Part shown: one piece after another, positions 475 through 2,201 of the stretch
How the letters are laid out: the number at the start of each line of letters is the position of its first letter
Numbering within the stretch: the stretch's first letter is position 1
Assembly (NCBI GenBank): GCA_022616725.1
Contig: JAKEEH010000420.1
Coordinates: forward strand, 1 to 54,810
DNA from: Limisphaerales bacterium
Lineage (GTDB): Bacteria; Verrucomicrobiota; Verrucomicrobiia; Limisphaerales; JAKEEH01
DNA length: 54,810 nucleotides
Direction: 5' to 3'
Translations under genes and position numbers: made by a program
Notes under the pieces: model-generated
The model's input: the letters and a program-made list of their open reading frames with translations, nothing else
Database searches by the model: none
Told to the model about the DNA's origin: nothing

Positions 475-1584
475 TTACGAATACGGCGCGCGTTCGCCCG
501 GGTTGCGTCCGGGCGGAAGGAGGGTTCCGGCGGCGGCGCGGCTGCGGAGATCCTGTTCTTCGGAAATCATCTGGTTCTTCACGCTGCGCATCCATTTTCC
601 GTGCGGGTTGTCGAGGTAACCGCGGGCGGTCAGCGGGCGATGTTTCATGTATTCCATCCACGCGGCATCCAGCGCCTGGCCAATTTCGAGCTTCGAAAGG
701 CTATCACAGTCGATTGCAGCGATTTCAGTTGAGAGGCCCGGCTTCAGGCCATCTTTGACGCGCTTGACAATGATCCGGCCGGGGCCGTTGGTCTCGCCGC
801 GCACCCAAATAAATTGCCGGACGTGCCAGCGGAGGAAGTCCGAGTCCCGAAGCGCGCCGGGGACGTCGCCGTGGACGAAAGCGAGAGGAAGGCGCGCGTA
901 ACCCGCCATCGAGTTGAAGGGCGCGGGGTAGCGGCCACCCTGACGGCGAGCCGGTTTGTCGGGCCAAAGGAACCAGTCAAGTTTTAATTCGTCTGATCCT
1001 TTAGTGTGAGCGGCAATGACTTTGTCGAGCACTGCGCCGGTGGTGTCGCAGCCGTGACGGCCATAGATGACCGAGGACCGGCCGTCTTTCGTCTTTTCCG
1101 TATGGCTGATCGGTTTGCCTGCCGGGTCAAGGATCATCTGGTCGCCGGTGCCGAGGATGAAGCCAAAGCGGTCTTTGTAATGGTTGCCCTGTTCCCAATC
1201 GAAGCGCAGGCCGATGAAATGGCGGGCCAGGCGGGAGTAAACGTCTGGTTTCGAGAGCACCCGGCTCTCTTCAAACTTAAAGCCGGGTCAGAAGACGCCG
1301 GTGCAATAGTTGTCGGCGACCTTGGTATAGGTGCTGCCGTCGCCGACGAGCGAGTAGCCCATGAGGAAGAGCGGCTTGCCGGTGGCCTGCGACATTTGCA
1401 ACGCTTGCTCAAGAGTCGGCACCCAGAAAACTTCGTCTGCGCCGCGGACAGCGTTAGTGGATGCGACCGCGCCAGAGATGAGGAGAAGCGAGAGAAGGGC
1501 GGCAGCGAGTTTGACGCAGAAATCCGAAGGTCGAAAGCCGAAGCTCGAAGGAAGGTCCGAAATCCGGAATCCGAACCGCGGCAT
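475..1584 (-). CDS. secreted thioredoxin-fold protein with in-frame TGA (candidate selenoprotein, or nonsense-interrupted gene)
   Basis: One reading frame runs from about 1584 (ATG; an earlier ATG lies at 1638) to the stop at 475 and is broken only by a TGA at 1288-1290. Before the TGA are a signal-peptide-like segment (VKLAAALLSLLLISGAVAS) and a thioredoxin-like opening (GKPLFLMGYS...NYCTGVF). After it come PGFKFEES, a helix ending ARHFIGLRFDWEQGN, and a strand pair FGFILGTGDQMILDPAGKPI, matching the beta3/alpha/beta4-beta5 parts of a thioredoxin fold. Aligned to the usual WCxxCK, the TGA sits at the first Cys. About 270 codons downstream remain intact with normal codon use. The residues just before the signal peptide come from an intergenic TTCGGATTTC-type repeat, so the exact start is unclear. 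The fold is well supported; the redox role and selenocysteine are inference. Confidence 0.6.
1260..1290 (-). other. in-frame TGA followed directly by a stem-loop
   Basis: In the transcript sense, TGA (1290-1288) is followed with no gap by CCCGGCT, a 14-base loop, and AGCCGGG, a perfect 7-bp stem spanning 1287-1260. Bacterial selenocysteine insertion elements are hairpins that start just after the UGA, so the placement fits. The loop is larger than usual and its G residues begin about 12 bases after the UGA, closer than the commonly described 16-37, so this is not a textbook element. The stem could be coincidental in GC-rich DNA. Confidence 0.4.
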
Positions 1585-1640
1585 TCGCGCTTCGGATTTC
1601 CTTGGGATTCCGGACTTCGGGCTTCGGACTTTCGTCATGT
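1529..1640. repeat. intergenic TTCGGATTTC/GAAGTCCGAA-type oligomer repeat
   Basis: Short imperfect units such as gaaatccgaa, cttcggattt and cttcgggcttcgga are strung together in both orientations between the peroxiredoxin and the thioredoxin-fold gene. The same family recurs at 35890-36140. Here it supplies the first residues (PRFGFRISDL...FGFRPSDF) of the downstream reading frame. Confidence 0.6.
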
Positions 1641-1651
1641 TTTGACTTGAA

Positions 1652-2185
1652 TCACGACTGTTTCAGCTTGGCGACGGCTTCCTTCATCTCCGCCAGATGC
1701 GTGTCCGCCGAAGGCGTGTCGGTTACGTGCACGATTTTGCCTTGTTTATCGATGAGGAAGCTGGCGCGGCGAGCCATCTTCGACTCACCACGACGCACGC
1801 CGTAGGTGTCGGTTATTTTTCCTTCGGCATCGGCGAGGAGCGTGAAGTTCAGGTTGTGCCTTTCGCGGAACTTCTTGTGGCTCTCCTCGTTGTCGAAGCT
1901 CACGCCAACGACCTCGACGCCGGCTTTCTTAAGGTCGGTCATCTGGTCGCGGAAGCCGCAAGCCTCTTTGGTGCAGCCCGGGGTGTCGTCTTTGGGATAG
2001 AAATAGAGCAGAACGGCATTTTTGCCGGCCTGATCGGCGAGTTTCCACGATTTGCCGTCCTGATCTTTGCCTTCAACCAGGGGCGCTTTATCGCCCACTT
2101 TCGGCGTTTTCGAGGGTTCGGCCGCGGTGGCGGCGAAAGCGGCGGCAACCACGATTCCGAGGGAGAGTTTGAACATGCTTTTCAT
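1652..2185 (-). CDS. secreted BCP-type peroxiredoxin
   Basis: A 177-residue thiol peroxidase of the AhpC/TSA superfamily, BCP-like subgroup, which reduces hydroperoxides through a reactive cysteine. An N-terminal signal peptide (MKSMFKLSLGIVVAAAFAATAA) predicts a periplasmic protein. The peroxidatic cysteine is C71 in DDTPGCT, with the BCP-type resolving cysteine C76 five residues later (CTKEAC). The C-terminal half holds the FxLLAD, YGV and FLID(K)QGKI segments of the fold. I chose the start at 2185 because upstream codons are low-complexity and overlap the preceding gene, while this Met begins a clean signal peptide. It lies 16 bases after the Gfo/Idh gene and just before the thioredoxin-fold gene; a shared envelope redox role is plausible but inferred. 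Confidence 0.88.
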   Translation of the reverse strand: MKSMFKLSLGIVVAAAFAATAAEPSKTPKVGDKAPLVEGKDQDGKSWKLADQAGKNAVLLYFYPKDDTPGCTKEACGFRDQMTDLKKAGVEVVGVSFDNEESHKKFRERHNLNFTLLADAEGKITDTYGVRRGESKMARRASFLIDKQGKIVHVTDTPSADTHLAEMKEAVAKLKQS

Positions 2186-2201
2186 ATGCGTTTGGATTTT
2201 T

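Follow-up and report, generated by a model that had tools for sequence, protein, structure and literature searches.

The locus described here raises the question of how a TGA codon that breaks an otherwise intact reading frame is to be read: as the end of a protein, as a recent lesion or as selenocysteine (Sec). The frame lies on the minus strand of the window, which is the whole 54,810-nucleotide stretch of Limisphaerales DNA analysed, opens at ATG 1638 (or ATG 1584) and closes with the stop codon at 475-477; the TGA at 1288-1290 is its sole break. A preliminary description, which gave no strand, had already noted this single TGA, and the frame is confirmed. The read-through product has a signal-peptide-like stretch, a thioredoxin-like part and then about 170 further residues, and the TGA residue is placed in the context NYCTGVF-U-PGFKFEESRVLSKPDVYSRLARHFIGLRFD. 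The source assembly is a fragmented 6.07 Mb draft of 583 contigs and probably a MAG. The gene and its surroundings comprise:

475 to 1638, minus strand: candidate selenoprotein gene, 387 aa with the TGA as Sec (U117); a single-TGA frame with coding signal on both sides.
1288 to 1290, minus strand: in-frame UGA codon, the proposed Sec117; aligned to the first Cys of the Thioredoxin_7 CxxC even when masked as X.
1441 to 1518, minus strand: signal-peptide-like stretch (CVKLAAALLSLLLISGAVAS...), judged by reading the sequence.
478 to 993, minus strand: C-terminal region of about 170 aa, no recognised family (no Pfam match at E<=10).
1652 to 2188, minus strand: upstream gene in the same direction, a secreted peroxiredoxin (AhpC-TSA, Cys form; PF00578, 143.8 bits).
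1519 to 1620, no strand assigned: dispersed palindromic repeat (CCGAAATCCGGAATCCGAA-type) with inverted repeats, situated between the peroxiredoxin stop and the signal peptide.

The coding signal continues past the TGA. On both flanks the coding score is normal and higher in this frame than in every other frame, and the 269-270 codons after the TGA reach a hexamer score of 0.59 (0.89 in the first 50 codons), compared to 0.52 on average in the genome's long ORFs. The codon score of this downstream part is 0.307 versus 0.246, and its GC content per codon position is 0.64/0.47/0.73. The normal coding character earlier ascribed to the downstream 270 codons is consequently borne out, with hexamer and codon scores above the reference values, and these codons are free of frameshifts, second stops and loss of codon bias, which argues against a gene that is becoming a pseudogene. 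TGA is an ordinary stop here, ending 20 of 40 long ORFs, in agreement with the earlier view that the code is not reassigned. Within 1.12 Mb of the genome, 53 stops (29 TGA, 15 TAG and 9 TAA) pass the same filter for frame continuity, mostly operon neighbours lying in one frame by chance. As continuity past a TGA is no rarity, the deciding points are the place of the codon in the protein fold and the genome context. Near its start the frame runs on through the dispersed repeat (GFRISD...GFRPSDF), similar copies of which occur in seven of 103 other sampled stretches (L153, L110, L172, L100, L085, L093 and L168), and the true start codon (1638 or 1584) is therefore uncertain. The gene order suggests that the candidate and the adjoining upstream peroxiredoxin are a redox pair and probable partners.

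The place of the TGA in the fold was defined by a register test, in which the TGA residue was masked as X and the downstream half of the protein was slid ungapped along four CxxC-anchored Thioredoxin_7 proteins, with both Cys columns left out of the scoring and 20,000 shuffles for comparison. The features of the domain are:

1279 to 1293, minus strand: redox motif F-U-P-G-F (UxxF; Phe replaces the second Cys of CxxC), from sequence and alignment.
1291 to 1350, minus strand: insert of about 20 residues between a thioredoxin beta strand and the redox site, seen as an alignment gap; carries Cys112 (1303-1305).
994 to 1287, minus strand: downstream half of the thioredoxin-like domain (post-redox-site helix, next strand and LDPAGKP strand), from the register test.

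At the best of all offsets X coincides with the first Cys (score 4.0, runner-up -6.3), a register which lies 4.06 sd over the shuffles and is reached by 1 in 20,000 of them (~5e-5). The earlier placement of the TGA at the first Cys of the thioredoxin CxxC is consequently retained when the identity of the residue is hidden. In MAFFT the register is unchanged whether the site is given as X, S or C, while with G the Cys is displaced by a gap. The Pfam Thioredoxin_7 model matches the domain with its insert at E 0.0086 and, with the insert taken out, across the TGA at E 2.2e-4; as the latter match depends on an edited sequence, the masked register test is the cleaner evidence. The PF13899 gathering score of 27 bits is missed in each form (13.1 at full length, 16.6 for the domain and 21.7 with the insert left out). 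AlphaFold2 was uninformative on the single sequence (pLDDT 37); with a 12-row alignment it predicts a helix (52-62) directly behind U at 51, at a pLDDT of ~68-80, although this fold is partly imposed by the Thioredoxin_7 alignment supplied. The site lacks two features usual in thioredoxins, a second Cys and a cis-Pro. A possible resolving Cys and partner of U117 is Cys112, which lies five residues ahead of it inside the insert.

Compared to known families, the window protein shares with the Thioredoxin_7 (PF13899) and DsbD C-terminal domains a common fold and order of elements, with U at their first Cys and no gap in the register across the helix and strand that follow. It differs from them in the insert of ~20 aa before the site, in the Phe that stands as the second Cys (UxxF where Thioredoxin_7 has CxxC), in lacking the cis-Pro and in the C-terminal region of ~170 aa without a family. 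Iodothyronine deiodinases also carry a U-P-x-F stretch. The likeness to deiodinases (PF00837) which the preliminary description had pointed out holds for this short motif alone, as neither the Pfam (searched to E<=1 with the full protein and to E<=10 with the domain) nor the NCBIfam deiodinase models match. A further parallel is given by the Trx-like and Prx-like bacterial selenoproteins (UxxC, UGC, UxxU), which, as proposed for the target, have Sec at the first redox Cys and a SECIS hairpin within ~40 nt past the UGA, and which occur in the target's own genome; the target, however, has U-P-G-F rather than UxxC, in a Trx_7-like rather than an AhpC-TSA domain. A 2026 catalogue of prokaryotic selenoproteins lists thioredoxin-fold families with UxxC, CxxU, UGC and UxxU, as well as a Trx7/PDZ family with CxxU, while a UxxF Trx_7-like protein is absent from its table of 119 families (PMC13188914). 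The Trx7/PDZ selenoprotein (NF041199) has a Trx7-type domain with Sec, as proposed for the target, but its Sec occupies the other Cys of the motif, and a search of NCBIfam with the window protein gave no match at E<=5, to NF041199 or any other model.

The preliminary description had proposed a search of the genome for selA, selB, selC and selD, and all four are present, selB and selC included. SelB (330 bits) has the SelB-specific winged-helix and beta-barrel domains, SelA scores 493 bits, SelD (306 bits) is of the Cys form, and the tRNA-Sec, with the anticodon UCA, adjoins selD. The selD gene (L052 5084-7378; 764 aa) encodes SelD in fusion with a preceding NAD(P)/FAD-dependent oxidoreductase domain and is situated near the tRNA-Sec (L008 1498-1593). 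Within the order SelB is patchy, being found in 13 of 58 sampled genomes, each of a different family.

A search of the genome for AhpC-TSA domains yielded six genes with an in-frame TGA inside the domain (L208, L210, L211, L214, L216 and L221, on contigs C289, C265, C409, C173, C512 and C339, respectively). Read through, these AhpC/TlpA-type genes have the redox sites HWUPPC (two genes), DWUGPC (two genes), FUPTU and WUGC, and the WUGC gene (query from L214) matches the NCBIfam ResA-like WAxxUGC family. Since all six carry the TGA at redox sites, Sec decoding is very probably in use in this genome, at sites equivalent to that of the window TGA. Two in-frame TGAs are found in L221 (FUPTU, UxxU), and L208 and L211 have a cytochrome-like N-terminal part ahead of the Prx-like domain. 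Other candidate selenoproteins were rejected: SelD is a Cys form, and the same applies to formate dehydrogenase, considered as a selenoprotein that might maintain the Sec machinery, as the FdhA found reads RVCHAPT. The gene for this Cys-form alpha subunit (L071, contig C170) adjoins a NuoF-like sequence, despite the full Sec machinery of the genome. A paralogue search for further TGA genes in 1.12 Mb turned up no clear selenoprotein, most of its hits being antisense shadow ORFs.

A Sec codon in bacteria is expected to be followed by a SECIS element, and two overlapping structures are found after the TGA:

1259 to 1288, minus strand: 10-bp stem with a 10-nt loop, right after the UGA, -16.6 kcal/mol; includes the 7-bp stem noted earlier.
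1253 to 1269, minus strand: hairpin GAGAGC-CGGGU-GCUCUC, the proposed SECIS, with its apical loop 24 nt past the UGA; within published bSECIS limits.

The first of these, reported in the preliminary description as a perfect 7-bp stem, is confirmed, with a full length of 10 bp, and perfect 7-bp stems beginning 0-1 nt past a TGA are seen at 0.27% of the TGAs in 1.12 Mb of the genome. As a SECIS, it is rejected. The published limits comprise a loop of 3-9 nt, a stem of 4-16 bp, a UGA distance of 16-37 nt, a G in the first two loop positions and an MFE <= -7.5 (PMC13188914), while this stem has a 10-nt loop situated 9 nt from the UGA, with G third, in agreement with the earlier reservation that the loop G lies nearer the TGA than usual. 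The second hairpin had been overlooked. It was spotted by eye ahead of testing, and the limits applied were the published ones, within which it falls with a 5-nt loop opening CG (G second), a 6-bp stem and an energy of -7.5 kcal/mol bare or -8.9 with flanking bases; the share of the genome's random TGAs that also fall within them is 3-4%. The two structures are mutually exclusive and the 10-bp stem is the more stable. Removal of the 9-15 nt that directly follow the UGA, mimicking a ribosome stalled there, makes the hairpin at 1253-1269 the predicted fold.

Hairpins with a G[G/U] loop 20-31 nt past the UGA also follow all six of the other Sec-UGAs in the genome, with the loops GGUC in CACGAGC-GGUC-GCUCGUG (three genes), GGUCU, GUC and AGUUG. 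The letters flanking the loop (GAGC before, GCUC after) are common to the three GGUC genes and the target, although the target loop CGGGU differs from the GGUC of these three best siblings. With a stem >=5 bp, an energy <= -5 and a G[G/U] loop, six of six siblings and the target pass, compared to 8.8% of random TGAs; at an energy <= -7.5 the target passes together with four of the six siblings, compared to 4.1% of random TGAs.

Homologue searches returned chance matches or the repeat-encoded N-terminus only. No homologue of the window protein was found among 58 relatives, 388 genomes of the phylum and 320 of the order, nor in the GTDB contig collection and IMG/VR; a PDB sequence search gave no match and Rfam no meaningful match. 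Consequently there is no Sec/Cys pair to prove the site, though distant Trx_7 proteins have Cys there. The earlier proposal to look for Cys, Sec or Trp at this position is answered in part: no homologue with Trp was seen, but only because no homologue was found at all.

This result bears on the strongest alternative, that a once-intact thioredoxin-like gene, with Cys or some different residue in this place, was recently hit by a nonsense mutation to TGA and is becoming a pseudogene. A Cys codon is one base change from TGA, the second Cys is already gone, no homologue displays a Sec/Cys exchange, and the dispersed repeat in the 5' region may be a sign of decay. Such a mutation would nevertheless have placed its stop on the single residue where Sec is expected, ahead of a SECIS-like hairpin and in a genome with six equivalent sites at which TGA is read as Sec, and, together with the intact 270 codons that follow, this renders a nonsense mutation improbable. 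An assembly or sequencing error, conceivable in a 583-contig draft that is probably a MAG, is considerably less probable still, as a lone substitution must by chance hit the catalytic codon, turn it into TGA and precede a fitting hairpin. Least credible is a pair of neighbouring genes, one coding for 116 aa up to the TGA and the other for 261 aa from GTG 1260. Both ORFs are mechanically possible, the GTG is preceded by a purine-rich GAAGAGAG, and operon neighbours commonly share a frame in this genome; but such a split would cut one thioredoxin domain, PGFKFEESR (the codons from TGA to GTG) belongs to the aligned helix, and the coding signal of the first 50 codons past the TGA is very strong.

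The TGA at the catalytic-Cys position most likely encodes selenocysteine. The candidate selenoprotein of the preliminary description is thereby supported by its position in the fold, by selA, selB, selD and the tRNA-Sec(UCA), by the six sibling genes and by a fitting hairpin, and we consider it highly probable that the product of the gene is a secreted Trx_7-like selenoprotein whose site reads U-P-G-F, encoded beside a secreted peroxiredoxin. A ribosome arriving at the UGA (1290-1288) would open the 10-bp stem that begins there, and the downstream strand so freed could form the hairpin GAGAGC-CGGGU-GCUCUC (1269-1253), to which SelB with Sec-tRNA may bind. Sec would then be placed at the catalytic first-Cys position of the Thioredoxin_7 domain, so that the site reads F-U-P-G-F. 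Once exported, the protein would serve as a thiol/selenol redox enzyme, perhaps with the secreted peroxiredoxin from the gene just upstream as its substrate. As the usual second Cys is Phe, it would fall to Cys112 in the insert, or else to an external thiol, to resolve a selenenyl intermediate. Only tentatively can the protein be viewed, in all its particulars, as the first known member of a family that combines a Trx_7-like domain, a deiodinase-like U-P-x-F, a partner Cys in the preceding insert (C-x4-U), a family-less C-terminal region and two mutually exclusive mRNA hairpins, of which the approaching ribosome unmasks the SECIS.

If this reading is true, a functional selenoenzyme is encoded at a locus which automatic annotation would divide in two or label as broken, and it is of a type new to the catalogue of ~119 prokaryotic selenoprotein families. 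The plain reading of TGA as a stop would also break at least six other selenoprotein genes of this genome. The UxxF site without the usual resolving Cys poses a concrete chemical question, and the paired hairpins offer a testable model for a SECIS that overlaps a stronger structure.
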